From contig NZ_JAMHFY010000035.1 of the NCBI RefSeq assembly GCF_023897015.1, positions 1-46,280 on the forward strand: a DNA stretch of 46,280 nucleotides. The letters run 5' to 3'. The notes beneath the pieces were generated by a model. The model ran no database searches and was not told the DNA's origin. It worked only from the letters and a program-made list of their open reading frames with translations. Positions 30,210 to 45,841 of this stretch are shown in pieces. Origin of the DNA: Desulfosporosinus nitroreducens (GTDB taxonomy: Bacteria; Bacillota; Desulfitobacteriia; Desulfitobacteriales; Desulfitobacteriaceae). The translations under genes were made by a program, and so were the position numbers. How positions within the stretch are numbered: the first letter of the stretch is position 1; every line of letters begins with the position of its first letter.

Positions 30210-30252
30210 AGTCACGAATGACTGACAAAAGTCCTTCGTGACTTAGTTTTTT
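30210..30252 (+). terminator. Terminator downstream of the SDR gene
   Basis: AGTCACGAA pairs with TTCGTGACT, followed by TAGTTTTTT. The 3' arm carries TGACTT (30239-30244), the half-site also found upstream of the sigma-54 promoters. The stretch 30253-30448 shows no gene. Confidence 0.7.
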
Positions 30253-30448: not shown

Positions 30449-30464
30449 TGGCATTGAATTTGCA
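30449..30464 (+). promoter_or_regulatory. Sigma-54 promoter of pylT-pylSc
   Basis: TGGCATTGAATTTGCA matches the -24/-12 consensus TGGCAC-N5-TTGCA at all critical bases (GG and GC, correct spacing). Transcription would start near 30475, about 35 bases before the tRNA. The same element occurs at 32795, 40813 and 42733. Confidence 0.8.
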
Positions 30465-30510
30465 TTATATCAAAATGTAGTTCATTAGAGACTTGAAGTC
30501 ATTCAAACAT

Positions 30511-30582
30511 GGGGGGTAGATCGGATTGATCGCGTGGACTCTAAATCCGCGTAGGCGGGTGAAACTCCCGTACTCCTCGCCA
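30511..30582 (+). tRNA. pylT: tRNA-Pyl (anticodon CUA, amber suppressor)
   Basis: The 72-nt gene folds as a typical tRNA-Pyl: a 7-bp acceptor stem (GGGGGGT/ACTCCTC with two G-U pairs), one base before the D stem, and a 4-bp D stem (GATC/GATC) with a 5-nt loop. The anticodon stem has 6 bp (CGTGGA/TCCGCG) and the loop is CTCTAAA with CTA at 30541-30543. The variable loop has 3 nt, the T loop is TGAAACT, the discriminator is G and CCA is encoded. It reads UAG as pyrrolysine when charged by PylSc/PylSn. It lies 24 bases before pylSc and downstream of a sigma-54 promoter, so it is probably cut from the pylSc message. Confidence 0.97.
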
Positions 30583-30605
30583 ATTAATTCAGGGGGTATG
30601 CTTTA

Positions 30606-31439
30606 GTGAGCATTACATGGACAATGATCCAAAAACAACGTTTACAAGAACTAAACGCTAGTGAAATATTGCAAGAGATGTGTTTCGAGTCTCAGCATGA
30701 ACGGGATCGAGCCTATCAAGAGCAAGAGCATCTTTTGGTGGTTAGAGGAAAACAGAAGTTACTGGAACTGTTAGAAACTACAAGACGTCCTGCTTTAAGT
30801 GTACTTGAACAACAACTCGTAGAAGCTTTAACACAAAAAGGATTCGTTCAAGTTGTCACTCCAACGATTATCTCAAAAACAGCCTTAGCAAAGATGTCAG
30901 TGTCAGATGATCATCCGCTTTTTTCTCAAGTCTTTTGGCTGGATTCTAAACGATGTTTACGTCCGATGTTGGCCCCTAATCTATATACCTTATGGAAAGA
31001 TCTATTGCGTTTATGGGAAAAGCCAATCCGTATCTTTGAGATCGGGACTTGCTACAGGAAGGAATCCAAGGGTGCCTTACATCTGAATGAGTTTACAATG
31101 CTTAACCTGACGGAATTAGGCTTGCCTGAAGATCAGAGGCATCAACGATTGGAAGAGCTTGCTTCTCTGGTCATGGATACCGCGGGGATTGTCGATTATC
31201 AGTTGGAATCAGAATCATCCGTTGTTTATGGAGATACTTTAGATGTTGTTAAAGGGATTGAATTAGGTTCAAGTGCCATGGGTCCACATGCGCTTGATGA
31301 TCAATGGGGAATTTTTGATCCATGGGTTGGAATAGGATTTGGTTTAGAACGTTTACTAATGATTAAGGAAGGTTCCCAGAATGTCCAAAGCATGGGTAGA
31401 AGCCTTACTTATCTTAATGGTGTGCGGTTAAATATCTAA
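30606..31439 (+). CDS. pylSc: Pyrrolysyl-tRNA synthetase, catalytic C-terminal domain
   Basis: The 277-residue class II synthetase domain has VTPTIISKTALAKMSVSDDHPLFSQVFWLDSKRCLRPMLAPNLYTLW, motif 2 RIFEIGTCYRKES, HLNEFTMLNLTELG, SSVVYGDTLDVVKG and motif 3 GIGFGLERLLM. This closely fits bacterial PylSc. In bacteria the tRNA-binding N-domain is a separate gene, found here at 36178-36501. GTG at 30606 has GGGGG nine bases upstream. It ligates pyrrolysine to tRNA-Pyl. The gap of about 100 bases to the next gene has no terminator. Confidence 0.97.
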   Translation: MSITWTMIQKQRLQELNASEILQEMCFESQHERDRAYQEQEHLLVVRGKQKLLELLETTRRPALSVLEQQLVEALTQKGFVQVVTPTIISKTALAKMSVSDDHPLFSQVFWLDSKRCLRPMLAPNLYTLWKDLLRLWEKPIRIFEIGTCYRKESKGALHLNEFTMLNLTELGLPEDQRHQRLEELASLVMDTAGIVDYQLESESSVVYGDTLDVVKGIELGSSAMGPHALDDQWGIFDPWVGIGFGLERLLMIKEGSQNVQSMGRSLTYLNGVRLNI

Positions 31440-31540
31440 TGAACTGAGAGATACAGATGTAAGGCTTTACGATCGGTGCATTAGAATTGACTAAGTGTTT
31501 TAGAGAAAATTCTAATTTGAATGGGAGGATCAATAATTTT

Positions 31541-32494
31541 ATGACTGAACCAATTATGATCGAACCCTCCATATCGATGGAGCATATCGGACGCATCTAC
31601 AAAATGATCAGTGAAATTCCTTTCTTTAATGAGGGCAGAATTAGTGCAATTGAAATCTTGCCCGGTGGACTAACGAATAGCAACTATAAGGTAACAATTA
31701 GTGAAGTGACCTATGCGGTTAGACTTGCCGGAGCAGGCACTATGGAATACCTGAATCGTCCTGCTGAAAAGCATAACGCACAGCTTATGGCGGATATTCA
31801 AATCAGTGCGCCCATTATTTACTATGATGAAACAACAGGAAACCAAGTATGTAAGTATATAGATGATTGTATTACGTTACATATTAAAGACTTCCAAGAG
31901 GAAGAACGTTATCTTAGTATGGCAGCCCATGTTTTTAAAAAGTATCATGATTGCCAGAAGGAATTTATCTCTGTTTTTAACCCCTTAAAAGAAATTGATG
32001 CTTATATTCAATTATTAGCAGAGAAAAACTTTGAATTTTATGAAGGTGCCGAAACCATGAAGGAAAAAGTTGAAGAAATTAAGTTACTCTTTAAGAATAA
32101 TCCTCCTCCTCAAGCCCCATGTCACAATGATCCACTTTGTGAAAACTGGTTAGACGATAAAAAGAATTTCTATCTTATTGATTGGGAATACGGCGGAATG
32201 AACGATCCGTTGTTCGATTTAGGAGCACTGGCGATTGAAGCAGAACTAACTGATGAGCAAGAACGCTTTTTCTTAAAGGAATATTATGGCGGGGACTTGA
32301 CAGAGAAACAACTGGGCTCTCTTATTATTAATAAATTTCTGTGCGATGCATTATGGTCCTATTGGGCAGTACTGCAAATTGCTATGGGTAAATCTCGAGA
32401 AGAGTATTGGCCATATGGTTTAAACAGATTTAATCGAGCTTACGCCCTAATTCACAATGAAAGCTTAGACCGAGCTATCAAAGCTAATCAATAG
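31541..32494 (+). CDS. Choline/ethanolamine kinase-like phosphotransferase (LicA type)
   Basis: The 317-residue APH/ChoK-fold protein has ILPGGLTNSNYKV (nucleotide loop), YAVRLAGAG (catalytic-lysine position replaced by Arg or displaced), the Brenner motif CHNDPLCENW near residue 198 and DWEYGGMNDPLFDLGALA (metal-binding Asp). This is the LicA / choline kinase family rather than the antibiotic kinases. ATG at 31541 follows GGGAGG. It splits the pyl genes, sitting between pylSc and pylB, and a LicB-like transporter lies downstream at 41054. I infer a link to choline. The stop is UAG, 11 codons before a UGA. Confidence 0.8.
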   Translation: MTEPIMIEPSISMEHIGRIYKMISEIPFFNEGRISAIEILPGGLTNSNYKVTISEVTYAVRLAGAGTMEYLNRPAEKHNAQLMADIQISAPIIYYDETTGNQVCKYIDDCITLHIKDFQEEERYLSMAAHVFKKYHDCQKEFISVFNPLKEIDAYIQLLAEKNFEFYEGAETMKEKVEEIKLLFKNNPPPQAPCHNDPLCENWLDDKKNFYLIDWEYGGMNDPLFDLGALAIEAELTDEQERFFLKEYYGGDLTEKQLGSLIINKFLCDALWSYWAVLQIAMGKSREEYWPYGLNRFNRAYALIHNESLDRAIKANQ

Positions 32495-32542
32495 GTAGAA
32501 TATAGACATTCATTTACTGCATTCCTCTGATATTTATTAATG

Positions 32543-32573
32543 GCCCGGTGTTATTTACCGGGTCTCTTTTTAT
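32543..32573 (+). terminator. Terminator after pylSc and the kinase
   Basis: GGCCCGGT pairs with ACCGGGTC around a 7-nt loop, followed by TCTTTTTAT. It separates the pylT-pylSc-kinase unit from the pylB operon. The rest of 32574-32931 has no gene, only the sigma-54 element and a TGACTT half-site at 32619-32624. Confidence 0.75.
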
Positions 32574-32794
32574 TTGATGAAATGATTAAGTACAAGATAA
32601 GTTGATATGAGTTAATAATGACTTAAGAGGAGTGCTACCCGACTTGACTACGGATGTTTTCGACCTGTCATGAATAAAATGACGCCCGATCCAGGCATGA
32701 ATGAAGCTTTGAAAATGAGAGATATCCGTTATAACAGAAGGCTTCACAGAGTTCGCAAGGATAATGTCAGTATCTAAATATTGCATGCTTATCT

Positions 32795-32810
32795 TGGCAT
32801 AAAACTTGCA
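32795..32810 (+). promoter_or_regulatory. Sigma-54 promoter of the pylBCD operon
   Basis: TGGCATAAAACTTGCA is a full -24/-12 match with the same TGGCAT and spacing as the other three elements. Transcription would start near 32822, about 110 bases before pylB. Confidence 0.8.
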
Positions 32811-32931
32811 ACTATATTAGATTCAAAGCTGAATATTGAATTTATTAAATTATAATGTATCAACTCATAGCCTAACCATAGTAGTACATGACCAATAATA
32901 TGTAATACTCGATGAAAAAGAAGGTGACTTA

Positions 32932-34050
32932 ATGGCAGTGAATTCGGCGACTAACCCAAAATTAGATGAAATATTGATCAAAGCTACTAAGGAGATCCCT
33001 TTAAACCAAGATGAACTTCTTTCTTTATTAAGAGTATCGGATGAAAAAGAATTAACTCAGGTGTTTGAAGCAGCTAGGCTACTTCGGACTCGTTACTTCC
33101 TTAATAAGGTATTCAGTTATGGTTTTGTGTATTTCTCAACTTATTGTCGAAATGAATGCGCCTTTTGTTTTTACCGTAAGTCAAACAAATCGTTGCAGCG
33201 TTACCGTAAAACGGATTTGGAAATTATGAAGACTGCTTTTAGTCTGATAGATTCAGGAGTTCACTTGATAGATTTGACCATGGGAGAAGATTCTTACTTT
33301 TTTCAAAACCAAGGTTCGGGTTTTGCTCATATGATTAGAACTGTGGAAATGATTAAGAAAAGCACAAGTATTCCAATTATGCTTTCAGCGGGAGTTCTTC
33401 CAGAAGATGTTCTATCGGAATTTAAAGAGGCTGGCGTCGATTGGTATGCTACTTATCAAGAAACCCATAACCCCAAATTGTACAGTCGGCTTAGACTTGG
33501 TCAAAGCTATGACGAACGAATGAATAGAAAAACAGACGCGCAGAAGATGGGGTTTCTCCTAGAAGAGGGATTACTTACCGGAGTGGGGGATACGGACGAA
33601 GATTTGGTTAATTCGTTTGAGGAAATGAAAAAGCTGGGGGCAGACCAACTGCGAGTAATGAGCTTTATCCCTCAGAAAGACACCCCAATGCAACACTTTT
33701 CTGCAGTACCTCGAGCGCGCGAGTTACTTGTAATAGCAATCATGCGTCTGGTATTTCCGGATCGTTTAATTCCTGCCTCCTTGGATGTGGATGGCTTGAA
33801 CGGCCTAGCGGAACGTCTAAACGCTGGAGCTAATGTCGTCACTTCAATAATACCCCCTGAGTCTGGTTTAGCTGGGGTGTCTAATCATTCGTTAGATATT
33901 GAAGACGGGAATCGGACAATTAGTAAGATTACTCCCATCCTGGAGAAGTGTGGGCTTGTTATGGCAAGCCGTCAGGACTACAAAGATTGGATTCTTATGC
34001 GTCAGAATAAGTTTAGTATTTCGAGAAAGGAAGCCTGTGCATGCGAGTAG
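32932..34050 (+). CDS. pylB: Pyrrolysine biosynthesis radical SAM lysine mutase
   Basis: The 372-residue protein has a radical SAM motif CRNECAFCFYRKSN (Cys72, Cys76, Cys79). Typical PylB stretches include DLTMGEDSYFF, MLSAGVLPEDVLSEFKEAGVDWYATYQETHNP, GVGDTDED and SFIPQKDTPM. It converts lysine to 3-methylornithine, the first step of pyrrolysine synthesis. GAAGGTGA precedes the ATG. It overlaps pylC by ten bases. Its stop is UAG, and the same frame meets two more UAGs 30 and 45 bases later, a striking feature in a pyrrolysine gene. Confidence 0.97.
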   Translation: MAVNSATNPKLDEILIKATKEIPLNQDELLSLLRVSDEKELTQVFEAARLLRTRYFLNKVFSYGFVYFSTYCRNECAFCFYRKSNKSLQRYRKTDLEIMKTAFSLIDSGVHLIDLTMGEDSYFFQNQGSGFAHMIRTVEMIKKSTSIPIMLSAGVLPEDVLSEFKEAGVDWYATYQETHNPKLYSRLRLGQSYDERMNRKTDAQKMGFLLEEGLLTGVGDTDEDLVNSFEEMKKLGADQLRVMSFIPQKDTPMQHFSAVPRARELLVIAIMRLVFPDRLIPASLDVDGLNGLAERLNAGANVVTSIIPPESGLAGVSNHSLDIEDGNRTISKITPILEKCGLVMASRQDYKDWILMRQNKFSISRKEACACE

Positions 34051-35228
34051 CAATTGTGGGTGGAAAGTTGCAAGGGGTAGAGGCAGTTTATCTAGCAAAG
34101 AAAGCAGGATGGGAAGTTGTCCTTGTTGATATCAACGATTGGGTGCCGGCGGCAGAACTATGTGACGAATTCTGTGTTTTCGATGTCACAAAAGTTGTCA
34201 ACTGGATTCCCTTCTTAAGGGACATAGATCTGATCATTCCCGCTTTAGAGAATCAAGAAGCTTTAGACAGCTTAGTAAGAAGCTCACAATATGCAGGTGT
34301 TCCCATGCTTTTTGATAAGAATGCTTATGAAATATCTTCTTCTAAAATCAGTTCCAACGAAATGTTTGCTCGTACAGGGGTTCCCGCTCCAACCCCATGG
34401 CCGGAGTGCGGTTTTCCTATCATCGTTAAGCCTTCCGGAGCTAGCGGGAGTGAAGGGGTACATAAAGTAAGAAGTGCTGCAGAATTTCAGGACCTATTTG
34501 AAATGGGTTTAACCGACTCAGTGATCGAAGAGTATCTGGAAGGACCTTCATATTCGTTAGAGGTAATCGGTTTCTCAGGAATTTATAAAGTCTTGCATAT
34601 CACAGAACTCCATATGGATGAGAAATACGATTGTAAACGTGTTATCGGTTCAGCAATTCTCCCAGCTCAACTTAGAGAAGAGTTTGAACAGATTGGAATA
34701 AATCTGGCCCGTAACCTCAAACTGAACGGGATTATGGATATTGAGACAATTCTGCATCAAGGCAAGTTAAAAGTCCTAGAAATTGATGCCCGTCTTCCGA
34801 GCCAGACGCCAGTGTCTGTTTTTCATGCAACGGGAATTAATATGCTGGAGATCCTTGGTCAGGCTTTCGTCGAAGGTAAGCCTTGGCAAGAGTTTGAGGT
34901 TAGTGATAAACGTGGAGTGATTTACGAACACATCCATGTCTGGAATGACTGCCTTGAGGTTTGCGGCGAACATATTATGACCGACTCTGGTCCACTCCAC
35001 CTGTATCCGGACTTCTTTGGAGCAGATGAAGCACTTTCCAACTATATACCTGGCAAAATTGATTGGGTAGCAACTTTAATAATTAGTGGAAAGAACCTTC
35101 AAGCTGCCTGGAAGCAACAAGAGGTTGTTATCCAAGCTATTAGGAATGAATGGGGAATCCGAAAATACTATGACAGATGTGAAATGGATGAGGAAACCAC
35201 TGATATAAAATATGCCTCAGGGAGTTGA
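34041..35228 (+). CDS. pylC: 3-methylornithine-lysine ligase
   Basis: The 395-residue ATP-grasp protein starts MRVAIVGGKLQGVEAVYLAKKAGWEVVLVD. It has PIIVKPSGASGSEGVHKV (ATP lid), VIEEYLEGPSYSLEVIGF and MDIETILHQGKLKVLEIDARLPSQTPVSVFHATGINML. It joins lysine to 3-methylornithine with ATP. ATG at 34041 lies inside the end of pylB, and its own stop overlaps the pylD start region, so translation is coupled through the three genes. Confidence 0.97.
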   Translation: MRVAIVGGKLQGVEAVYLAKKAGWEVVLVDINDWVPAAELCDEFCVFDVTKVVNWIPFLRDIDLIIPALENQEALDSLVRSSQYAGVPMLFDKNAYEISSSKISSNEMFARTGVPAPTPWPECGFPIIVKPSGASGSEGVHKVRSAAEFQDLFEMGLTDSVIEEYLEGPSYSLEVIGFSGIYKVLHITELHMDEKYDCKRVIGSAILPAQLREEFEQIGINLARNLKLNGIMDIETILHQGKLKVLEIDARLPSQTPVSVFHATGINMLEILGQAFVEGKPWQEFEVSDKRGVIYEHIHVWNDCLEVCGEHIMTDSGPLHLYPDFFGADEALSNYIPGKIDWVATLIISGKNLQAAWKQQEVVIQAIRNEWGIRKYYDRCEMDEETTDIKYASGS

Positions 35229-35233
35229 TCATA

Positions 35234-36061
35234 TTGACGCGGCTAAAGGTGGAGGATGTCGTTGAAATCCCCCAGACGTTGGAGGAATACAACTTAGAAT
35301 TGATTAGAAAAACAGGTTGCTCTTTAAGAGAAATCTCTGCCCGTGCAGCAGGGCTTGGAGTCAGTGGAGAGTTATCTCATCACCACTTAAAAGTAGCAGT
35401 GATTCCGATGTCCTGTGGTCAAGGAATCATTGAGGGATTCGCGGAGTCCGTAGCAAGTATTATAAGTTATTTAGGATTTAATGTTGTAATTACTCAAAGC
35501 TGGGATGCTGGCGGAGTTGCAGAGGCAGTACAAGGTGGTTCAGAAATCTTATTCATGGCGGATGATGAACGCTTCGTTGCCGTCAATGTGCGTTCGGGTA
35601 AGGTTTCAGATAATGGTGATGCAACAGGAAGAGGGTACGCGACAGGGCTAGAACGGATGTGTAATGGGTTAGAAGGCAAAAAGGTATTGGTAATTGGGGC
35701 AGGCCCAGTGGGACATGGTGCAGCAACAGCCCTTGCCCGTTTGGGAGCTGAGGTTGGTGTTTATGACATTGAGGGATCATCAAGCGAAAGGTTATCCAAG
35801 GATTTAGAGAAACTGGGATATACCGTTGAGATCGAAACGAATTTATATGAGGCTTTAGATCACTATCGCATTTTTCTAGATGCTTGTCCTGCCCAAGATG
35901 TCATTTTAACGAAATATATTACCAAAGAAACTATGATTGCAGCTCCGGGAATACCCCTTGGAGTCGAGGCGTCTGGGGTCGGGCAGGTTTCAGCCAGATT
36001 GCTTCATGATCCTTTGCAAATAGGCGTGTCTACCATGATGTTCGACGTATTACAGAGGTGA
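35234..36061 (+). CDS. pylD: Pyrrolysine synthase (final oxidation and ring closure)
   Basis: The 275-residue dehydrogenase has VIPMSCGQGIIEGFAESVASIISYLGFNV, FMADDERFVAVN and the NAD-binding KKVLVIGAGPVGHGAATALARLGAEVGVYD. The C-terminal IPLGVEASGVGQVSARLLHDPLQIGVSTMMFD is diagnostic of PylD. It oxidises 3-methylornithyl-lysine to the semialdehyde that cyclises to pyrrolysine. I choose TTG at 35234, about ten bases after CAGGGAG and giving MTRLKVEDV; a TTG at 35225 is too close to that site. Confidence 0.96.
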   Translation: MTRLKVEDVVEIPQTLEEYNLELIRKTGCSLREISARAAGLGVSGELSHHHLKVAVIPMSCGQGIIEGFAESVASIISYLGFNVVITQSWDAGGVAEAVQGGSEILFMADDERFVAVNVRSGKVSDNGDATGRGYATGLERMCNGLEGKKVLVIGAGPVGHGAATALARLGAEVGVYDIEGSSSERLSKDLEKLGYTVEIETNLYEALDHYRIFLDACPAQDVILTKYITKETMIAAPGIPLGVEASGVGQVSARLLHDPLQIGVSTMMFDVLQR

Positions 36062-36177
36062 CTTATTAGGGTGGAGTCCTGCTCCCCTAAAGTCTAGTCA
36101 GACTATACAGAGCTTAGCACCGCTTAAACTGTTTAACTCGTATCACATGAATTGCTGGATTGATTGGAGTGGGATCA

Positions 36178-36501
36178 GTGACAGTAGATGCATCAAAAAA
36201 GAAGCGTTTTTATCGCAAGAATGTAGATTTTTTCAAATTCGTTGAGAGGCTTAAGTTATGGCCGTCCAGAAGTGGAATTCTGCATGGTGTTAAAACTATG
36301 ACAATCAGAGGAAATACTGCTGAAATCGTTACGCATTGCAATGAAAAGTTTCAGATCTATAATTCTAAACATAGTCGTGCAGCACGTTGTCTTCGTAATA
36401 AATTGTTTTTTCATGCCTGTACTGCCTGTAAAATCCCAGGGTGGAAATTAGAAAAATATTCCTCAACCCATGTTAATCAAAACTATGGATCGCGCTTATA
36501 G
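36178..36501 (+). CDS. pylSn: Pyrrolysyl-tRNA synthetase, N-terminal tRNA-binding domain
   Basis: The 107-residue basic protein has KKKRFYRKNVDFFKFVERLKLWPSRSGILHGVKTM, EIVTHCNEKFQIYNSKHSRAARCLRNKLF and CTACKIPGWKLEKYSSTH. These include the His/Cys zinc-binding residues of the PylS N-domain. It binds tRNA-Pyl tightly and assists PylSc. GTG at 36178 has GGAGTGGGA upstream. The stop is UAG, after which the same frame stays open for 74 more codons to 36726, through the mttC start. Confidence 0.95.
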   Translation: MTVDASKKKRFYRKNVDFFKFVERLKLWPSRSGILHGVKTMTIRGNTAEIVTHCNEKFQIYNSKHSRAARCLRNKLFFHACTACKIPGWKLEKYSSTHVNQNYGSRL

Positions 36502-36580
36502 AGGTCAGTCTTAGGGTGTGTTTTAACAACAATAATGCTTGTTCTTATCCATCAGTTAAAGTGCAAGCTTTATTATAAAA

Positions 36581-36607
36581 GCCTTACCTATACAGCGGAA
36601 GGTTTTT
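36581..36607 (+). terminator. Weak hairpin before mttC
   Basis: GCCTTACC and GGAAGGT can pair with one bulge, followed by TTTTTC. This could reduce read-through from pylSn into mttC or form part of the mttC leader. Confidence 0.35.
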
Positions 36608-36668
36608 CTCAGGGACTAACTCTTTGTTTATGGTACTTATTACTTGAAAAAGAGGAGGAAATTAAGGA

Positions 36669-37307
36669 ATGTCTAACTATGCGGATCTTGCACAAAGTGT
36701 TATTGAGGGTCAAAAGGATAAGGTAAAGGAACATGTTCAAAATCTAATTGCAGCAGGTAACAGTCCTTTAGAAATCGTAAACGAGGGTTTAATTGCTGGA
36801 ATGAATGTTGTTGGGGTTCGATTCAAAGCTGGGGATATGTACGTTCCTGAAGTTCTCATGGCAGCTAAAAGCATGACAGGCGGACTAGAGATTGTTAAAC
36901 CCTTAATCGCTGCTGCCGACCAAAAAAGCAAAGGGAAAATTCTGCTGGGAACGGTAAAAGGGGACCTGCACGACATTGGTAAAAATCTTGTTGGTATGCT
37001 GATTGAAAGTGGAGGTCTTGAAGTTATTAATATGGGAGTAGATATCTCGGCTGAAGATTTTATTGATGCCATTATTGAGCATGAACCCGATATTCTTGCC
37101 CTGTCCGCTCTTCTAACTACAACGATGCCAGCTATGCAAGATATCATTGAAATGTTACAAGAAGAGGAACTCAGAGACAAAATAAAAGTAATTATTGGGG
37201 GAGCCCCGGTTTCTCAGGAGTATGCTGACACGATTGGTGCGGACGGTTATGCCCCGGATGCAGGCTCGGCGGTTGAACTTTGCAAGAGACTTTTGGCATC
37301 CAAATAA
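36669..37307 (+). CDS. mttC: Trimethylamine corrinoid protein
   Basis: The 212-residue protein has an N-terminal helical cap (MSNYADLAQSVIEGQKDKVKEHVQNLI...FKAGDMYVPEVLMAAKSM). The B12-binding Rossmann domain carries the base-off motif GDLHDIGKNL (Asp99-x-His101-x-x-Gly104), ALLTTTMPAM and IGGAPVS. It carries the cobalamin that accepts a methyl group from MttB. AGGAGG precedes the ATG. In bacteria the methyl group usually goes on to tetrahydrofolate through an MtvA/MtgA-like enzyme, which is not in the window, nor is a Ram-type activator. Confidence 0.94.
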   Translation: MSNYADLAQSVIEGQKDKVKEHVQNLIAAGNSPLEIVNEGLIAGMNVVGVRFKAGDMYVPEVLMAAKSMTGGLEIVKPLIAAADQKSKGKILLGTVKGDLHDIGKNLVGMLIESGGLEVINMGVDISAEDFIDAIIEHEPDILALSALLTTTMPAMQDIIEMLQEEELRDKIKVIIGGAPVSQEYADTIGADGYAPDAGSAVELCKRLLASK

Positions 37308-37423
37308 ATAGGAGCAATAATTGATAAATGGGTATTTAAGGGGGTGATTTCTCCGCGCAATTAGAGTTTCAGGTATACCAAACTTGTATCTTAGAGCTCT
37401 TAAAATATATGGAGGTGATTTTT

Positions 37424-38947
37424 TTGACATTCAGAGGTATACATGCTGGTTCCACCCGAATGGATGGAATCGGGCTGAATATGTTTACCAACGATGAGCT
37501 GTACGATGTCCATTTGGCTACACTAGACCTGCTTTGGGATGTCGGGGTAAAAGTTGAAAGTGAAGAGGCACGTGAAATATTTTATAGTGCCGGATGTACT
37601 CTTGACAGGAACACAAACATTGTCAAAATACCAGCGCACTTAGTAGAGGATGCTATTCGTTCAATACCTAAGACATTTAGAGCTTGTGGAAGAAAGCGCG
37701 AAAATGATTGGCTGAATGAAGGAAATCGGACAGGTTTTGTTAACTTTGGAGAAGCTATCCGAATGATTGACCCTTATACTCGGAAACTGAGAAAACCATT
37801 CAAAAAAGACGTTGATGATGTCACTCGTTTCTGTGAGGCAATGGATCAGATTATTGTCTTTGAAAGAGCTTTAGGGCCCTCAGAAGTTGATCCGGATGTT
37901 GCTCAAGTGCATATTGCAGAATCCTTCTATAACTTTTCGACGAAGCACGCCTATATCGGTATGAATCGCCCTGAAAACATGCGCGCAGTTGCAAAAATGG
38001 GCTATGTTGTTTCTGGTGGAGAAGATAAATTCCGTGAAAGGCCCCTTTTCTCACAAAGTACAGATCCAGTGGCTCCCCTTGTTCATGCTAAGGGTGCAAC
38101 AGATACACTGCTTCAAGCAATTCGCTTGGGCGTCCCAGCTAAAATTAACTCTATGGGTCTTGCTGGCGGAACAACCTGTGTACACCTCGCAAGTACACTA
38201 GTGACACATAACGCCGAAATTCTAAGCATGTTTGTCTTGGGTCAGCTTGAAAAAAGAGGGTATCCGATGGTCTATGGAACTTCCACAACCATGATGGATC
38301 TGAGAACAACCGTTGCTTGCGTCGGAACTCCAGAACTGGCTCTCTTCAGCGCAGCCTGTGCCAAACTCTCACAATTCTATAATATTCCTGTCTGGGTAGC
38401 CGGTGGATAGACGGATAGCAAAGTACCGGATGCCCAAGCAGCTCATGAGTTTACCCTGACCGCTTTATTACCAGCGTTAGCAGGCGCTAACATGATATAT
38501 GGTCTAGGGATGCTCGAAGGTGGCTTAACTTGGGACTACGCTCAAATGGCTATGCAGAATGAAATGGCTCGCATGATTATGCATACCATTAAAGGAATTC
38601 CGATAAGTGATGAGAAAATGGCCTTGGAAGTTGTCCGTTCGGTAGGTATCGGCGGAGAATTCATTAGCCATGATCACACTTACGCACATTTCAAAGAGCT
38701 GTCTAAAACGGAATTGTTAGATCGCAGAAATCGAGAGAACTGGGAAGCAGCTGGCAGTAAGGATATTGTCGAAACTTCCTATGCAAAATCGATTGATATT
38801 CTTGAGAACTACGAAAATCAAAATCCTCTTCCGGAAGATATCCAACGCCAGTTAAAGGAAATTGTCTTAGAAGCAGAAGCAGAAACGACAGAGATTAAGG
38901 CGAAGGAAAAAGAAGCTAGAAGAAGACCGCGAAAACCCAAATTCTAA
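37424..38947 (+). CDS. mttB: Trimethylamine methyltransferase with in-frame UAG (pyrrolysine)
   Basis: The frame runs 507 codons with one TAG at 38408-38410, codon 329. The flanks are VWVAGG-UAG-TDSKVPDAQAAHE, the exact setting of pyrrolysine in MttB. After the UAG the same frame continues with LTALLPALAGANMIYGLGMLEGGLTW and 176 further family-like residues, so this is recoding and not truncation. MttB transfers a methyl from trimethylamine to MttC. TTG at 37424 follows GGAGGTG; an ATG at 37409 overlaps that site. The UAG separates it from non-Pyl MttB homologues such as glycine betaine methyltransferases and argues for TMA as substrate. Confidence 0.97.
38408..38410 (+). other. Pyrrolysine codon (UAG) in mttB
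   Basis: The in-frame TAG lies between GTAGCCGGTGGA and ACGGATAGCAAA. It corresponds to the substrate-binding pyrrolysine of the MttB barrel. It is read by the tRNA-Pyl at 30511-30582. Confidence 0.95.
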
Positions 38948-38951
38948 GCAA

Positions 38952-38990
38952 AAAACAAGGAGCTGTGAGTATTCACCAGCTCCTTGTTTT
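38952..38990. terminator. Terminator of mttB, facing the activator gene
   Basis: AAAACAAGGAGCTG pairs with CAGCTCCTTGTTTT, with a further TGA/TCA pairing in the loop. It lies between convergent genes and can serve both. Confidence 0.85.
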
Positions 38991-39072
38991 ATTAGTTTCT
39001 GCCTCAATATCCAAATCAGACTTTGGGCCGTAAATCCGTGCAAAATCTGGGCTTTCGAGAAATTAGCAAACC

Positions 39073-40488
39073 CTAGTTAAGCTCGCTGTGCGCTGATGGG
39101 CAGTATTTCCGAATCAGACGATTCGCTTTACTTTGACTGATGTCCAGAACCTTAGCCACTTCGTAAGAACTTCCAAAATTCTTATAGGCTTGAATGATCA
39201 AGTTCTTCTCAACATTACAAATGGCATCATCGAGGGAAAGTGGTTGCCTAGGCTTCTGAGGGAAAGTTTCTGCTTGAGGCTCCGCCATGGTTTGGAAGGA
39301 TTGGGGGAGGTCACATTCATCAATGACTTTGTCTTGGGTTACTACAGTAAGACGTTCAATAATATTCTCAAGTTCTCGAACATTCCCAGGCCACGGGTAT
39401 TGTTTAAATAGTTCGTAGCATTTCGAACTGAATTCATGTTCGAGTTTATACTTCTTATTAAATTTAGCTAGAATAAATTGAGATAAGGGAATAATTTCTT
39501 CTCTTCTGTCTCTTAAAGGAGGAAGAGTAAGTTCAAAGATATTCAGCCTATAATATAAGTCTTCGCGAAAAGTACCTTTTTTAATCATCTCTTGTAAGTT
39601 ACGGTTTGTGGCTGCGATTACTCTGCACTGGACTTGCTGAATCTCGCGGCCTCCTACCTTAAAGTATTGGTTTTCATGAAGAACCTGTAATAGTTTGGCT
39701 TGCATTCTTGGAGAAAGTTCGGCAATTTCGTCCAGAAAAAGGGTTCCATCATTGGCTAACTCGATTAAACCTATATTGCCCTTGACGTTGGCTCCGGTAA
39801 AAGCACCTTTAGAATATCCAAACATCTCGGCCTCCATGAGTTCTGAAGGAATGGAAGCACAATTAACTGTAATGAATGGGCCGTCTTTGTAGGGGCTCTG
39901 ATTGTGAATATACTTAGCCATATGTCCTTTTCCTGAGCCAGATTCACCCAGCAGAAGTACGGTTGAATTTACGGCTGAAATGCGCCGGACAAGTTTGAGC
40001 AGAGATTCCATTTTTGGGCTTTGACATATAAAGTCGGGAATGTTCATTTCTTTTTTTCGAAGGACTTCCACTTCCATTTTATAGCGTTTTAGCAACTCTA
40101 TGCTTTTATCTAGTTCATGCTTCATTCCTTCTGACTCTGTAACATCTCTGGAATTCTCAATGATTAGTTCGATGTTACCTTCAGAGTCAAAGACTGGGGT
40201 TGCAGTTGTGAGTAGCGTCTTTCCAGTACATGTTTTTTGTTCAAGGGTTATGCTCATTTTTTTATCAATTGCAATGGGACTAACCCGAGGACCCCAATAT
40301 TTCTTTTCGGATATCTCACGAGATTTTTTACCAATAATTTCAGATGCTTTTACCCCATAATGCTTCTCACAGACATTGTTAACATAAATGACAATACCCA
40401 TAGCATTTGTAACATAGATTTCATCATGGGAATTGTCTAAGATTTTCTTTAAGGTATTAAAATCGAGTTCTGTAGTTCCTGAATCCAA
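39073..40488 (-). CDS. PAS-domain sigma-54-dependent activator
   Basis: The 471-residue protein has a PAS domain (about residues 10-115), a linker, and an AAA+ domain with Walker A GESGSGK (181-187), the sigma-54 contact loop GAFTGA (228-233) and Walker B GTLFLDEI. The C-terminal Fis-type helix-turn-helix (SYEVAKVLDISQSKANRLIRKY) completes it. It hydrolyses ATP to open sigma-54 promoters after binding upstream. TTG at 40488 follows AAGGAGG. It is divergent from the transporter gene and sits among four sigma-54 promoters, so it is their likely activator. The PAS ligand is unknown. The stop is UAG. Confidence 0.93.
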   Translation of the reverse strand: MDSGTTELDFNTLKKILDNSHDEIYVTNAMGIVIYVNNVCEKHYGVKASEIIGKKSREISEKKYWGPRVSPIAIDKKMSITLEQKTCTGKTLLTTATPVFDSEGNIELIIENSRDVTESEGMKHELDKSIELLKRYKMEVEVLRKKEMNIPDFICQSPKMESLLKLVRRISAVNSTVLLLGESGSGKGHMAKYIHNQSPYKDGPFITVNCASIPSELMEAEMFGYSKGAFTGANVKGNIGLIELANDGTLFLDEIAELSPRMQAKLLQVLHENQYFKVGGREIQQVQCRVIAATNRNLQEMIKKGTFREDLYYRLNIFELTLPPLRDRREEIIPLSQFILAKFNKKYKLEHEFSSKCYELFKQYPWPGNVRELENIIERLTVVTQDKVIDECDLPQSFQTMAEPQAETFPQKPRQPLSLDDAICNVEKNLIIQAYKNFGSSYEVAKVLDISQSKANRLIRKYCPSAHSELN

Positions 40489-40712
40489 ACTAATGACCTC
40501 CTTAAACTCGAGTTCATGGTATGGTTATAGAATAGATAGAAAATCTTCTCAAATACAGATAGATAAGTCTGTAATGGATTCTGACAATCTAACATTAATT
40601 TCGTCATAAAATGAGAATATCCTCTTGAATCCTTAAATAATAACTAACATCTCAATTATACAATAAAAATCCTCATAGCATAGCCTGGCATTTTATCATT
40701 CTATAAATAGAT

Positions 40713-40729
40713 TTGACTTAACGAGTCAA
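40713..40729. promoter_or_regulatory. Palindrome, candidate activator site upstream of the transporter promoter
   Basis: TTGACTTAACGAGTCAA has perfect 6-bp arms and lies 84 bp before the -24/-12 element at 40813. A second TGACTT (40733-40738) is adjacent. The half-site recurs upstream of the other sigma-54 promoters. Confidence 0.5.
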
Positions 40730-40812
40730 CCATGACTTGCTATGAAGTAGGCTGATTTCACAAATATCTGATAATTAAGCAGTTTCTCAGGATTTAATAC
40801 TCATGTGAAGAA

Positions 40813-40828
40813 TGGCATGGTTTTTGCA
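40813..40828 (+). promoter_or_regulatory. Sigma-54 promoter of the transporter gene
   Basis: TGGCATGGTTTTTGCA is a near-consensus -24/-12 element. It is followed by a long leader of about 210 bases (40840-41053) with several small hairpins, for example GGGCAATTTTACCC. No known riboswitch is recognised and there is no other gene in 40489-41053. Confidence 0.88.
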
Positions 40829-41053
40829 TTATTCATATAATTATCAATCGGTGTCAGGTAAATGAGAGTAGTGAAGGTGAGGTGAAACCTAATTCTCTAA
40901 CAATGTAAACAAGGGAGAGGGGCAATTTTACCCAAAATAGTCCATGAGATCAACATACTATGATGCGACTATTGTAGTTTACAAGGTGTTAGAACTATCG
41001 TAACGGGCGGGTAAAGGTACGTAATGTATTAATTATGCGTGAGGAGGGAATTT

Positions 41054-42061
41054 ATGGCGTTAAATACTGCGAAAAATGTCCAAGTGATGCAAACAGCTCA
41101 GGAACTTGGTCATGCCAAAAAAGGACTTATCTATGGCGTAATTTCTGGTGCCACATGGGGGCTTGATGGAGTTATTCTTGGAATGGCGTTGGCCATGGCG
41201 CCGTTTACCGGTGGAGCTACTCTTTCTGTTTATGCAGGTTCTTTAGCAGGCGCAGCAATGCATGATGGTTTTGCTGGTTTTTGGCTCTTTTTCTATAACC
41301 TTTTTACCGGAAGAGCAAGTGAATATTTCCGGACGTTGCGTACTCGGCCAGGAAAAGTTGTCGTTTTAGCGGCACTTTTTGGGGGTCCAATAGCTATGTC
41401 GGGATATTTGTTAGGAATAAACATGGCGGGAGCTTCTTATGCCTTGGCTATAACGGCTATGTACCCTGCGGTCGGAGCTATTCTTGCGGTCTTTGTTTTA
41501 AAAGAAAAGATTATCCCAAGAGTTTGGGCTGGGATTATCCTTTGTGTTGGTGGTGCTGTTGTAGTGGGATATGTTCCACCAGCAGGTGATTTCCCTGATT
41601 TCTATTTAGGACTTGCATTCTCTTTGCTTGCTACATTAGGCTGGGGGATGGAAGGCGTACTTTCAACCTATGGAATGGATATGGCAGATCCAGATATTGC
41701 GATTGGAATCCGCGAGGCTACATCGTTTTTTGTTTATCTCATCGGAATATTACCTATTGCGGCTGGGGTTGTTGTTTTTTGGGATGCCTTTAAAGAAGTT
41801 AGCGTTTATTATGTCGCAGTTGCGGGTGCACTGGGGGCATTATCCTATGTTTGTTGGTATAGGGCATTGAATATGACCGGGGTAGGTCGAGCGATGGCTC
41901 TCAATGTAACATACGCCTTGTGGGCTGTTTTCTTTAGCTGGCTATTAATTCCTGGTTTTGAGCTTACTGTTACTCTCGTCGTTGGGGCTGTCATTATTAC
42001 CCTGGGAACTATTTTGGTCACAGCAAATCCCAAAGAGCTCTTGAAATTAAGAAAAGTATAA
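41054..42061 (+). CDS. DMT/EamA family transporter, possibly choline (LicB-like)
   Basis: The 335-residue protein has about ten hydrophobic helices in two EamA-like halves. GLIYGVISGATWGLDGVILGMAL starts the first half, and GLAFSLLATLGWGMEGVLSTYGMD with YVCWYRALNMTGVGRAMALNVTYALWAVFFSWL the second. It acts in the cytoplasmic membrane. ATG at 41054 has GAGGAGGGA upstream; an in-frame GTG at 41039 lies before that site. The DMT superfamily includes the LicB choline importers, and a LicA-like kinase is near. Uptake of choline or another quaternary amine is therefore inferred. It is the first gene of a sigma-54-driven pair. Confidence 0.82.
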   Translation: MALNTAKNVQVMQTAQELGHAKKGLIYGVISGATWGLDGVILGMALAMAPFTGGATLSVYAGSLAGAAMHDGFAGFWLFFYNLFTGRASEYFRTLRTRPGKVVVLAALFGGPIAMSGYLLGINMAGASYALAITAMYPAVGAILAVFVLKEKIIPRVWAGIILCVGGAVVVGYVPPAGDFPDFYLGLAFSLLATLGWGMEGVLSTYGMDMADPDIAIGIREATSFFVYLIGILPIAAGVVVFWDAFKEVSVYYVAVAGALGALSYVCWYRALNMTGVGRAMALNVTYALWAVFFSWLLIPGFELTVTLVVGAVIITLGTILVTANPKELLKLRKV

Positions 42062-42075
42062 GAGGGGGATTATTG

Positions 42076-42357
42076 ATGAAACTACCAATGCGTTTTCGAA
42101 TGCTGCATTTGCTTTCGAAAAATGAGAGCTTATCTGAAATAACCATGCAGGAAGCACTGAGACCAGAGTATGGTCAGGAAGGCCAGTTCAAAGAGGCCAG
42201 TATCGATAACCACTTTCAATCTATGTTAGCAGTAGGTCTTATTGAGATTAAGGAAGTTTCGATTGGTGCTAATGGGAAATTAACACATGAGTATAGAATT
42301 ACGGACTATGGGACTGGACGATTAAGTTATTTGCCCAAAGAGTGGCAAGGAATGTAA
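42076..42357 (+). CDS. Small winged-helix-like protein, unrecognised
   Basis: The 93-residue protein MKLPMRFRMLHLLSKNESL...SEITMQEALRPEYGQEGQF ends with LSYLPKEWQGM. The layout (three short helices, then ANGKLTHEYRITDYGTGRLSYL as a beta wing) resembles PadR- or MarR-like winged helices in miniature. It starts 14 bases after the transporter with GAGGGGGAT upstream, so the two are one operon. It could be a regulator of the BMC/transport locus. I do not recognise a named family. Confidence 0.65.
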   Translation: MKLPMRFRMLHLLSKNESLSEITMQEALRPEYGQEGQFKEASIDNHFQSMLAVGLIEIKEVSIGANGKLTHEYRITDYGTGRLSYLPKEWQGM

Positions 42358-42444
42358 TCCGATTAGATATAGAATCAAGAGAGGTCGGCTCGAGATGGTA
42401 CTGAACAGTCTTATTGATTAGAAGTTTCAAGTGTACATTATTCA

Positions 42445-42477
42445 AAAATGGCTAATGGATGATTCCTTAGCCATTTT
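42445..42477 (+). terminator. Terminator of the transporter operon
   Basis: AAAATGGCTAA pairs perfectly with TTAGCCATTTT around an 11-nt loop. The rest of 42358-42850 has no gene but carries regulatory elements. Confidence 0.7.
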
Positions 42478-42547
42478 GTCAATTTAATGCTCTCCTTCAA
42501 GGAATCTTTTGTTTGATGGAGATGTAGGTGAAAAATTATGGGTAATA

Positions 42548-42568
42548 CATGACTTATTATAAGTCATG
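42548..42568. promoter_or_regulatory. Perfect palindrome, candidate activator site upstream of the BMC promoter
   Basis: The arms CATGACTT and AAGTCATG are perfect inverted repeats around ATTAT. The site lies 165 bp upstream of the sigma-54 element at 42733, a normal distance for an enhancer-like site. It contains the TGACTT half-site twice. Confidence 0.6.
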
Positions 42569-42652
42569 CAGACTCAAGATTCGGAAATTAATTGTGAGAT
42601 TTGGATTCAATCGTGTTCTGATATAGAGGTATTAAGTGAAAATTGGTTCGCT

Positions 42653-42668
42653 AAGTCACAGATGACTT
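42653..42668. promoter_or_regulatory. Second TGACTT pair upstream of the BMC promoter
   Basis: AAGTCACAGATGACTT carries the same half-site in everted orientation, 65 bp before the -24 element. It may be a second activator site. Confidence 0.4.
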
Positions 42669-42732
42669 GATTAAATATGCTTTTTCCGCGGTTTTCTTGA
42701 TCTGATTGGTTTAAATAAGATACTTATGAAAA

Positions 42733-42748
42733 TGGCATAGTTTTTGCA
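42733..42748 (+). promoter_or_regulatory. Sigma-54 promoter of the BMC operon
   Basis: TGGCATAGTTTTTGCA differs at only one base from the transporter promoter at 40813. Transcription would start near 42759, about 90 bases before the first shell gene. Confidence 0.88.
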
Positions 42749-42850: not shown

Positions 42851-43186
42851 ATGACTATAAGAGCAGATCTTGTAGCACTGGGAATGGTGGAAACCCGTGG
42901 AGTTGTAGGTGCCATCGAAGCGGCTGATGCTATGGTCAAAGCAGCTAATGTCACCCTAATTGGGAAAGTAAAAGTAGGAGGAGCCTTAGTCACTGTCATG
43001 GTCAGGGGAGATGTAGGAGCCGTAAAGGCCTCGGTGGATGCCGGAGCTGCCGCTGCAGAGCGAGTCGGAGAACTCATCAGCTGTCACGTTATTCCGCGCC
43101 CACATCAGGAACTCGAAGCAATTTTACCTAAGCTACCCGTAATCGAAGAAAAAGCTAAAACGAAAAATGTTGATAATACAAAATAA
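42851..43186 (+). CDS. BMC-H shell protein (PduA/EutM type), first copy
   Basis: The 111-residue protein contains one BMC fold: [30 protein letters not shown], then [40 protein letters not shown] polar tail of about 25 residues follows. Such proteins form hexagonal tiles of the shell. AAAGGAG precedes the ATG. It is the first gene after a sigma-54 promoter. A close paralogue lies at 45443-45754. Confidence 0.95.
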
Positions 43187-43233
43187 ACCGTCGGAACTAA
43201 GGAAAATGTCCGGCATTAATAGGGAGGGAAACC

Positions 43234-43881: not shown

Positions 43882-43903
43882 CAAGGGGAGGTGCTCCTTG
43901 ATA

Positions 43904-45376: not shown

Positions 45377-45442
45377 AAAGCTAACGCATAAGCCACGAAC
45401 CACGAACACCGAATATCGAACTACGAAATGGGAGGGAATAAA

Positions 45443-45754
45443 ATGGCACAAGATCGAAGTGTAATAGCACTAGGAATGATAGAAACCAAAGGACTAATCC
45501 CGGCGATCGAAGCAGCTGATCAAATGTTAAAAGCGGCCAATGTCACATTGTGCGGAAAAGAGCACGTCTCTGGTGGATTGGTCTCAGTCATGGTGCGAGG
45601 GGATGTTGGAGCTGTCAAAGCTGCCGTCGATGCCGGAGCTGCAGCAGCCCAACGAGTCGGAGCACTCCTCAGCGTACATGTTATACCGCGCCCTCATCAG
45701 GACGTTGAGTACATTCTGCCAGTCGGTGATAACAAAAGTTATGGAGATAAATAA
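45443..45754 (+). CDS. BMC-H shell protein (PduA/EutM type), second copy
   Basis: The 103-residue protein is very close to the first BMC-H protein ([28 protein letters not shown]..., [39 protein letters not shown]) but has a shorter tail. ATG at 45443 follows GGGAGGG. The 66-base gap before it contains short repeats of the CACGAAC type, and the gap after it contains a hairpin (AGCCAGA/TCTGGCT). Both probably adjust expression of single operon genes. Confidence 0.95.
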
Positions 45755-45841
45755 GTAAACGTCAAACGTTCGAGCCAGAAGTAAAAGGAAATATTCTGAT
45801 CTCTGGCTTCTGACCTCTGACTTCTGTAATGAGGTGAGGAC

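Follow-up and report, generated by a model that had tools for sequence, protein, structure and literature searches.

A candidate sigma-54 regulon joining pyrrolysine decoding to an amine pathway and an ethanolamine-type microcompartment in Desulfosporosinus nitroreducens

The pyrrolysine locus of Desulfosporosinus nitroreducens raises the question of whether the reading of UAG as pyrrolysine can be placed under the same switch as the pathway that needs this amino acid. Promoters of the sigma-54 type are closed without an activator. The initial annotation of the window (the whole stretch analysed here, 46,280 nucleotides of contig NZ_JAMHFY010000035.1) had proposed such a switch, and the reading reached here, to which we assign a probability of roughly 0.87, is that four promoters of the window belong to a single sigma-54 regulon controlled by the PAS/AAA+/HTH activator encoded nearby. 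This protein would bind AGTCA-N4-TGACT palindromes 79-239 bp upstream of the promoter elements and would open RNA polymerase-sigma-54 promoters before the tRNA-Pyl-pylSc-kinase genes, pylBCD-Sn-mttCB, a transporter and an ethanolamine-type microcompartment operon. The amber-decoding capacity from this locus would then be made together with the amine pathway requiring pyrrolysine.

The sequence TGGCAT-N5-TTGCA was found exactly four times in the window (30449, 32795, 40813 and 42733), always on the forward strand, against 0.07 expected, and none of 100 shuffled windows reached four sites; the same-spaced elements first reported at these positions are thus confirmed. All four fit TGGCAY-N5-TTGCW, with the GG and GC cores and the exact spacing of sigma-54 promoters. 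Genome-wide, the -24/-12 pattern gave 35 matches and the reversed pattern one, and a single RpoN gene is present (contig C66, 197 bits). The predicted transcription starts in Table 1 were obtained by arithmetic, about 12 bp 3' of the GC core. It is highly improbable that the elements are chance or A/T-rich look-alikes and that the true promoters are of the sigma-70 type: at 30448 and 32794 weak sigma-70-like sites do overlap the elements, but such sites occur at chance level (9 against 10.0 expected), conservation lies on the -24/-12 letters and drops at the position of the overlapping -10 box, and reversed-pattern controls were zero both at tRNA-Pyl genes and in the genus genomes.

Table 1. 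Features of the window; positions are counted from its first letter.
Feature	Position	Strand	Evidence or remark
Paired enhancer (UAS) before tRNA-Pyl	30210..30243	.	AGTCA-N4-TGACT 30210-30223 (exact) and AGTCC-N4-TGACT 30230-30243 (1 mismatch), 20 bp apart
-24/-12 element, tRNA-Pyl/pylSc/choline-kinase-like operon	30449..30464	+	exact; predicted +1 ~30475
tRNA-Pyl (anticodon CUA)	30511..30582	+	
pylSc, pyrrolysyl-tRNA synthetase catalytic part	30606..31439	+	TIGR02367 374.6 bits, cut-off 178
Choline/ethanolamine-kinase-like protein, tRNA-Pyl operon	31487..32494	+	PF01633 2.5e-17
Intrinsic terminator-like hairpin, first operon/pylB boundary	32542..32564	+	3 terminator-like sites in region vs 1.9 expected
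Enhancer before pylB	32610..32623	.	AGTTA-N4-TGACT, 1 mismatch
-24/-12 element, pylBCD-Sn-mttCB	32795..32810	+	exact; predicted +1 ~32821
pylB, methylornithine synthase	32932..34050	+	TIGR03910 497.9 bits
pylC	34041..35228	+	PF21360 PylC-like_N 28.5 bits, cut-off 27
pylD	35225..36061	+	PF21455 PylD_N 7.5e-36
pylSn, synthetase small part	36160..36501	+	TIGR03912 125.9 bits
mttC, corrinoid protein	36669..37307	+	PF02310, PF02607
mttB-type methyltransferase, in-frame UAG (residue 334)	37409..38947	+	TIGR02369 627.6 bits, cut-off 525
PYLIS_3 element, from UAG codon onward	38408..38507	+	Rfam RF02510 92.3 bits
Sigma-54 activator: PAS, Sigma54_activat (AAA+), HTH_50	39073..40488	-	domain matches
Enhancer before EamA transporter	40724..40737	.	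exact
-24/-12 element, EamA transporter	40813..40828	+	exact
EamA/DMT-type transporter	41039..42061	+	PF00892
94-aa protein beside EamA	42073..42357	+	no family match; also in L066, L105, L110
Enhancer before microcompartment operon	42654..42667	.	exact
-24/-12 element, eut-type operon	42733..42748	+	exact
eut-type microcompartment operon	42851..46280	+	cut by contig end
EutM-like shell protein	42851-43186	+	121.5 bits, just below cut-off 133
EutL	43234-43881	+	355.7 bits, cut-off 300
Acetylating acetaldehyde dehydrogenase	43850-45376	+	676.4 bits, cut-off 620.1
Second shell protein	45428-45754	+	

The genes named behind these elements (tRNA-Pyl, pylSc, pylBCD-Sn, mttCB, the EamA transporter of the DMT group and microcompartment genes) were all identified, and the split bacterial pyrrolysine system is complete, with tRNA-Pyl(CUA), pylSc, pylSn, pylB, pylC, pylD and a target gene carrying an in-frame UAG. 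The choline-kinase-like gene of the tRNA-Pyl operon was missing from the initial annotation; it is present in 14 of 15 type-A loci, and in L068 it does not lie between pylSc and pylB.

The PAS/AAA+/Fis activator described in the middle of the region was recovered with its three domains and an intact GAFTGA (39790-39807). It has the features of a bacterial enhancer-binding protein, namely an AAA+ domain with Walker motifs, GAFTGA and a DNA-binding HTH, and its putative targets carry a conserved upstream enhancer. Its best NCBIfam match, the proline-reductase activator PrdR, was rejected as an identification (397.8 bits against an equivalog cut-off of 795).

The candidate enhancer AGTCA-N4-TGACT is common to all four promoters. 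Allowing one mismatch, it occurs seven times in the window against 1.41 expected, five of these sites being no more than 300 bp from one of the four promoters; a second copy before pylB, 21 bp further on, is weak (three mismatches). The motif was chosen from these window sites themselves, so that the argument depends mainly on the tests made in relatives. The enhancer sites did not appear among the features first listed. Within its own genome, the enhancer-plus-element pattern occurs only in this window.

Comparison of 15 Desulfosporosinus loci showed, before tRNA-Pyl, majority identities of 0.95 and 0.97 for the enhancer arms and 0.99 for the element over a background of 0.53; before pylB the values were 0.95 for the arms and 0.99 for the element, over 0.51. 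The pylB element is exact in all 15 loci and the pylB enhancer has at most one mismatch in 13, none within that limit being found in L068 and L071. The arrangement enhancer-N60-90-element was present in 14 of the 15 genus genomes that have the activator cluster and in 0 of the 14 that lack it, and enhancer-N165-195-element in 11 genus genomes, all among the 15 with the cluster (reversed control 0 in each case); the genomes so compared are not independent samples. In 10 relatives' loci an additional promoter, absent from the window, lies between mttB and the activator gene (seven exact elements, three with one mismatch); its enhancer has at most one mismatch in eight of them and was not found within that limit in L057 and L059. 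Some enhancer-plus-element matches of G016, G021 and G034 do not share a contig with the pyl locus, so that the regulon would be wider there.

The initial annotation had suggested searching related genomes for the element before tRNA-Pyl, and it was found at 22 of 80 distinct tRNA-Pyl genes (reversed control 0). The enhancer accompanies 18 of these 22 and none of the other 58; L049, L103, L104 and L151 have the element, and no enhancer of the AGTCA-N4-TGACT type was found there. In two close relatives, L064 and L067 (pylSc 86% and 84% identical), both the element and the enhancer are missing from the region before tRNA-Pyl, and their fetched pyl loci are without the activator. Sporomusa acidovorans and Ca. 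Formimonas warabiya have the same wiring, with an activator 65-68% identical. S. malonica (L105) has the activator and no element within 300 bp of its tRNA-Pyl, which lies directly 3' of eutC.

It might be argued that the elements are sigma-54 promoters and that different activators serve the different operons. The genome contains 48 PF00158 matches, 40 of them strong (E 1.6e-43 or better), another of which could bind the palindrome, and in the type-B pyl cluster found elsewhere in this genome the -24/-12 elements are accompanied by another activator and another shared upstream motif (recognized by eye). Such a division is nevertheless unlikely, since each of the four promoters has the same palindrome, whose distribution matches that of this activator cluster. 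The claim of one activator for all four promoters, that of tRNA-Pyl included, is thus well supported by the common palindrome, the 15-locus footprint and the co-occurrence with the activator cluster. In this single regulon the protein presumably binds the palindromes, its PAS domain would sense an amine or a derived signal, and transcription would be off without it.

The further claim, that amber decoding is switched by sigma-54, holds in part: this tRNA-Pyl has both element and putative enhancer, but two more tRNA-Pyl genes (C30, C23) have no -24/-12 element within 300 bp, so that UAG decoding in this genome need not be wholly conditional. In four near-complete relatives this tRNA-Pyl is the sole one found, and in relatives with a single tRNA-Pyl the decoding could be wholly conditional.

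The microcompartment announced behind the fourth promoter is present and is probably of the ethanolamine (eut) type, to judge from its EutM-like protein, EutL and acetaldehyde dehydrogenase. The contig ends before the operon does, and EutB is on C38 and C41; in the complete relative G014, EutB, EutC and EutA lie within the matching operon. A choline TMA-lyase (cut) microcompartment was considered and rejected: CutC is on another contig in this genome and, in G014, 2.9 Mb from the pyl locus (contig coordinates).

The substrate had been given as trimethylamine. By sequence the assignment to the MttB family is sound, the score lying above the curated cut-off (627.6 vs 525) and the Gly, Pyl and Tyr residues named in the available text of the TMA-enzyme structure paper (PMC9842639) being kept; Glu at the Thr111 position is common in other Pyl-MttBs and uninformative. 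Trimethylamine itself was an assumption, in view of the eut-type operon, the kinase and HAD-hydrolase genes and a more TMA-like Pyl-MttB elsewhere, and because the microcompartment appears to be of the eut type, choline or a methylated ethanolamine is about as likely. There is close to an even chance that the regulon dismantles choline or N-methylated ethanolamine. A kinase would phosphorylate the amino alcohol. Methyltransferases, one of them a pyrrolysine enzyme, would pass methyl groups through the corrinoid protein and MTII to tetrahydrofolate, and a HAD-type hydrolase would free ethanolamine for cleavage by the eut microcompartment. This route is consistent with the EutBCA genes of G014 and with a further enhancer-plus-element in G014, G017 and G027, immediately beyond genes for another kinase-like protein, a relative of MttB and a corrinoid protein; in G014 it precedes genes for a pterin-binding methyltransferase (MTII-type), a HAD_2 hydrolase, RACo and MTHFR on the same strand. 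In L183, L186, L187 and L188 further sites occur some 0.85 kb ahead of a gene of the amino-acid-permease type, and the one permease scanned (L186) scored best with the ethanolamine permease model (219 bits, under the cut-off of 381.75). In Sporomusa (L105, L110) the Pyl, kinase and eutBC genes have stayed together, and another Pyl-MttB of the D. nitroreducens genome is nearer the solved TMA enzyme (431 bits, against 347 for the window protein). The kinase-primed demethylation of choline by a non-Pyl MttB relative (PMC12155760) also favours this route. Against the route stand the family score and retained residues of the window MttB, and no candidate enzyme was found for the secondary-amine step. 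We know of no pyrrolysine enzyme acting on an amino alcohol.

Alternatively, the regulon may serve trimethylamine, eut being co-regulated only because trimethylamine and ethanolamine both come from choline and phospholipid head groups. The profile matches of MttB and the trimethylamine-dependent pylTSBCD expression of Acetohalobium arabaticum (in the available text of PMC11467909) speak for this possibility, whose odds are appreciable though somewhat short of even; however, no dimethylamine or monomethylamine methyltransferase is among the identified locus genes, eut and kinase genes are kept with the locus in two bacterial classes, and the second Pyl-MttB is the more TMA-like. It is tempting to speculate, though only tentatively, that in single-tRNA-Pyl species UAG turns from stop to pyrrolysine when the activator senses a choline-derived amine and that the Pyl enzyme acts on N-methylated ethanolamine (or its phosphate), feeding the microcompartment. 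To our knowledge, N-methylated ethanolamines are not a known substrate class of pyrrolysine enzymes.

The proposed regulon resembles the sigma-54 regulons of Clostridiales described by Nie et al. 2019 (PMC6615313), where the consensus is TTGGCAT-N5-TTGCT, the activator usually lies beside its targets, enhancers, often more than one, generally lie 100-250 bp upstream, and regulons comprise one to six operons. It differs in that two of four enhancer distances (79 and 89 bp) fall slightly under that range and in its palindrome, fifteen groups there using TGT-N10-12-ACA; Table 1 of that paper, as available, has 39 groups and no pyrrolysine, methylamine, choline or ethanolamine regulon. In A. arabaticum (Prat et al. 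2012) pylTSBCD is reported to be sufficiently expressed only with the methylamine substrate; neither a sigma factor nor a promoter element nor an activator is named in the available accounts (PMC11467909, PMC8318568), whereas a specific sigma-54 wiring is proposed here. In Sporomusa sphaeroides KIAC a SigL-dependent betaine cluster has sigma-54 promoters at mapped starts and includes genes for a transporter, for betaine and trimethylamine methyltransferase and reductase, and for sigma-54 activators (PMC12456013); the words 'pyrrolysine' and 'pyl' are absent from its text. COG5598 (MttB) is among the sigma-54-regulated groups of Clostridia (PMC12316311), the available text of which lacks 'pyrrolysine' and has tRNA passages about matters other than tRNA-Pyl. 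Kinase-primed choline demethylation is described for MthKBCA of Eubacterium limosum (PMC12155760), where a choline kinase lies, as here, beside an MttB-superfamily methyltransferase, a corrinoid protein and MTII; that MttB is non-Pyl, the endpoint is N,N-dimethylaminoethanol phosphate, and the available text mentions no eut genes.

In the literature searched no promoter-level mechanism for substrate-dependent pyrrolysine decoding was found, and a concrete one is offered here, with activator, enhancer, promoter and predicted start, which would explain on/off control of the code change. UAG ends 9 of 36 window genes checked, so that a mistimed suppressor tRNA could read through ordinary stops, and a sigma-54 promoter would be a sensible lock on it. 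The wiring recurs in Desulfosporosinus, Formimonas and Sporomusa, and the type-B clusters have a second sigma-54 version that is wired differently; these data suggest that sigma-54 control of pyrrolysine was recruited more than once. To judge from the eut, kinase and HAD-hydrolase genes, a pyrrolysine enzyme may here have taken on a new role.

The -24/-12 element of sigma-54 promoters, TGGCAT-N5-TTGCA, occurs four times in the window against 0.07 occurrences expected in a pattern scan, by which the four promoters of the initial annotation were confirmed and strengthened. Across the 5.46-Mb draft genome the scan gave 35 matches to the element and 1 to the reversed pattern, and a single RpoN was found. 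The gene content was as first stated, with the addition of a choline-kinase-like gene in the tRNA-Pyl operon. The PYLIS_3 element (Rfam) begins at the UAG codon of mttB, and the nearest named relatives at the pyl locus belong to Desulfosporosinus (among the best 80 of 358 confirmed relatives).

A second motif, the palindrome AGTCA-N4-TGACT, was recognized by reading the DNA upstream of the four promoters. With one mismatch at most, it has seven copies in the window versus 1.41 expected, a number reached in 0 of 100 shuffles. Five copies lie 239, 219, 185, 89 and 79 bp upstream of the four elements (start to start). The tRNA-Pyl promoter carries a pair spaced by 20 bp, and a weak second copy (three mismatches) follows the pylB enhancer site by 21 bp. 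Since this putative enhancer was picked from the window's own sites, it was tested on the relatives.

Coordinates of the promoter elements, enhancer copies and associated features (window positions unless a locus is named)
Feature	Position	Strand	Remark
Element	30449	+	before tRNA-Pyl/pylSc/kinase
Element	32795	+	before pylBCD-Sn-mttCB
Element	40813	+	before EamA transporter
Element	42733	+	before eut-type operon
Enhancer	30210		tRNA-Pyl promoter
Enhancer	30230		tRNA-Pyl promoter
Enhancer	32610		pylB promoter
Enhancer	40724		EamA promoter
Enhancer	42654		eut promoter
Enhancer	11700		
Enhancer	39315		within activator gene
Activator gene	39073-40488	-	PAS/AAA+/HTH
UAG stop	32492-32494		kinase gene
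UAG stop	34048-34050		pylB
UAG stop	36499-36501		pylSn
UAG stop	39073-39075		activator
UAG stop	43879-43881		EutL
Terminal 77 bases	46204-46280		also at end of contig C38
Symporter-like gene	L060:11498-13201		Pfam SSF

Of 45 family genomes, 27 scored above the cut-off with the PylS model; their pyl loci were fetched and marked for genes, elements and enhancers. Fifteen loci including the window (type A) share tRNA-Pyl-pylSc, pylBCD-Sn, mttCB and an activator with 83-91% identity; the set includes L068, a 4.5-kb contig ending in pylC, and L061, cut inside the activator gene. The initial annotation had proposed a search of related genomes for a -24/-12 element before the tRNA-Pyl gene, and an exact TGGCAY-N5-TTGCA was found to start 52-64 bp upstream of it in 15/15 type-A loci, at least one enhancer copy (one mismatch at most) being present in all of them and both copies in 13. 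The pylB promoter has an exact element in 15/15 and the enhancer, at the same tolerance, in 13/15. In the aligned type-A loci, the majority identity upstream of tRNA-Pyl is 0.53 for the background, 0.95 and 0.97 for the enhancer arms and 0.99 for the -24/-12 letters; upstream of pylB the corresponding values are 0.51, 0.95 and 0.99. Two further loci from close relatives, L064 and L067 (pylSc 86% and 84% identical), have a tRNA-Pyl with neither element nor enhancer, and no such activator or kinase was seen in the fetched stretches.

Ten type-A loci possess a further element between mttB and the activator gene (seven exact, three with one mismatch), accompanied in eight by the enhancer with one mismatch at most. 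The gene behind it is sodium:solute symporter-like in the four loci read (L060, L057, L065 and L069), the Pfam SSF assignment being confirmed for L060 only. The window and locus L066 have no symporter-like gene at this position; the activator separates this position from their EamA transporter. Nine of the 36 window genes checked terminate in UAG. The UAG stop of the activator itself was considered as a conserved feedback and rejected, UAG being found in only 2/14.

Within the genus, an enhancer followed after 60-90 bases by an element was found in 14 of 29 genomes, that is in 14/15 with the activator cluster versus 0/14 without it, and the reversed control gave 0; the one activator-cluster genome missed, G010, has an element that reads TGGCAA. 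A gap of 165-195 bases gave 11 genomes, all among the same 15 (control 0). In the window genome these searches match only the enhancers of the EamA, eut and pylB promoters, the two gap ranges leaving out the spacing of the tRNA-Pyl site. The comparison of tRNA-Pyl genes covered 80 distinct ones, drawn from the family genomes and from a named-genome scan in which the best 80 of 358 confirmed relatives were kept; 104 genes had been reduced to this set by dropping 20 duplicates and 4 with less than 80 bp upstream. An element lies within 300 bp in 22/80, with no one-mismatch-only version and none in the reversed control. The enhancer lies within 400 bp in 18 of the 22 genes with an element versus 0 of the 58 without (Fisher P = 2e-14, uncorrected for kinship), and the activator within 13 kb in 12/22 versus 1/58 (Fisher P = 1.2e-7), a count which is too low for activators in truncated loci or farther than 13 kb away, and in place of which the genus-wide motif search and the enhancer comparison are relied on. 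The enhancer footprint and its co-occurrence with the activator cluster indicate that the locus is very probably under the control of one sigma-54 activator, as had been claimed from the window.

The same arrangement extends beyond the genus. In Sporomusa acidovorans (L110), a member of the Negativicutes, Desulfosporosinus belonging to the Clostridia, the enhancer (one mismatch) and the element precede tRNA-Pyl-pylSc-kinase-mttC, pylBCD-Sn and EamA-EutM-EutL-dehydrogenase-EutQ-EutB-EutC; its activator is 65% and its mttB 85% identical to those of the window. Ca. Formimonas warabiya (L106) has both motifs before tRNA-Pyl and a kinase-EamA operon, with an activator 68% identical. Both also precede the tRNA-Pyl of L108, on a contig which ends about 5 kb further and holds no activator. 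In S. malonica (L105), eutC lies directly upstream of a tRNA-Pyl with no element within 300 bp, and element and enhancer stand before EamA-eut. Four other loci (L049, L103, L104 and L151) have the tRNA-Pyl element without the AGTCA-N4-TGACT enhancer. Two tandem UAG-containing mttB genes, divergent from the sigma-54 tRNA-Pyl promoter and with two activators nearby, were observed in Sporomusa sp. KB1 (L103).

The window stops inside the eut operon. Its final 77 bases are found again where C38 ends, probably as a repeat that broke the assembly. C38 (L192) carries a second eut operon of this genome, in which a scan found neither element nor enhancer. Another contig, C41, opens with EutQ-EutB-EutC-EutA-PocR-corrinoid-kinase-MttB in the gene order of the relatives; although the window contig or C38 could both precede it, we infer that it follows the window, because C38 already carries its own EutB and EutC before EutM. 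EutQ, EutB, EutC and EutA come next in the operon of the complete relative G014, followed by a regulator of the AraC/PocR type, a corrinoid protein, a kinase-like gene and an MttB relative that lacks UAG. The reading of the microcompartment as a cut (choline TMA-lyase) compartment was rejected, CutC being located elsewhere and the operon running on into eutBCA in a relative. The next enhancer and element in G014 precede genes for an MTII-type pterin-binding methyltransferase (whose mechanical start overlaps the element, the true start lying further in), a HAD_2 hydrolase, RACo and MTHFR. Sites past the kinase/MttB/corrinoid set are also present in G017 and G027, the genes beyond being identified in G014 alone. 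Additional sites occur in some relatives about 0.85 kb upstream of a permease (best model ethanolamine permease, 219 bits, below cut-off), before hydantoinase/oxoprolinase-like genes in loci L181, L182 and L185 (Pfam for L181 only) and, in one relative, before a chemotaxis receptor gene. A DUF1638 protein follows the hydantoinase/oxoprolinase-like genes in L181, with a look-alike in L182.

Demethylation of TMA had been assigned to this system, and the MttB of the window does exceed the cut-off of the TMA model. Against the solved TMA enzyme it scores 347 bits versus 431 bits for the Pyl-MttB of the other kind of pyl cluster (type B) in this genome, which is likewise above the cut-off. On these scores and the regulon genes, TMA and choline or a methylated ethanolamine appear roughly equally likely as substrates. 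The replacement of Thr111 by Glu was rejected as an active-site sign of altered specificity, Glu being common among other Pyl-MttBs.

Published accounts deal with sigma-54 regulons of Clostridiales (PMC6615313), with MttB as a class of sigma-54 targets (PMC12316311) and with betaine metabolism driven by SigL in Sporomusa (PMC12456013). Both PMC11467909 and PMC8318568 cite pyl expression that depends on TMA in A. arabaticum. The passages that concern Ca. Formimonas (PMC9768040, PMC6778437) mention Pyl proteins and their genes, and no sigma-54 control. None of the matches listed from the open-licence literature reported that sigma-54 controls tRNA-Pyl or PylS, a weak absence; the same literature yielded no paper joining pyrrolysine with sigma-54 and trimethylamine, or with ethanolamine ammonia-lyase.

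The proposal that sigma-54 switches tRNA-Pyl very probably holds for the window copy, but the draft genome (contamination estimated at 4.61%) has two others, on contigs C30 (type B) and C23, without an element within 300 bp. An exact element lies about 760 bp upstream of the C30 gene, the sole frame of at least 40 aa wholly inside the interval on that strand having 55 aa; no type-A enhancer was found there, and L050, L051 and L055, the further type-B loci inspected, show no element at this position. Type-B clusters (L050, L051, L052 and L055, that of C30 included) have elements before mttCB and between activator and pylB, and none within 300 bp of tRNA-Pyl/pylSc; their sigma-54 promoters share, by eye, another upstream motif of the TGTAAT...TTACA type, and their activator is 33-35% identical to that of the window. 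A tRNA-Pyl of a third type, with 76-78% identity to that of the window, occurs on C23 and in G014, G013, G011, G018, G019 and G010, near pylB, pylD, pylSn and corrinoid-protein genes in L170 (G014), L172 (G013) and L173 (G011); G014, G013, G011 and G018 have one pylSc above cut-off each despite it. Other members of the genus (G027, G019 and G010) likewise combine pyl types. Among 17 genomes searched, six with the window's type have a single tRNA-Pyl, namely G015, G016, G021 and G034 (98-100% complete), G029 (85%) and G030 (67%), and in these its expression would have, as far as was found, no close route other than the sigma-54 promoter.
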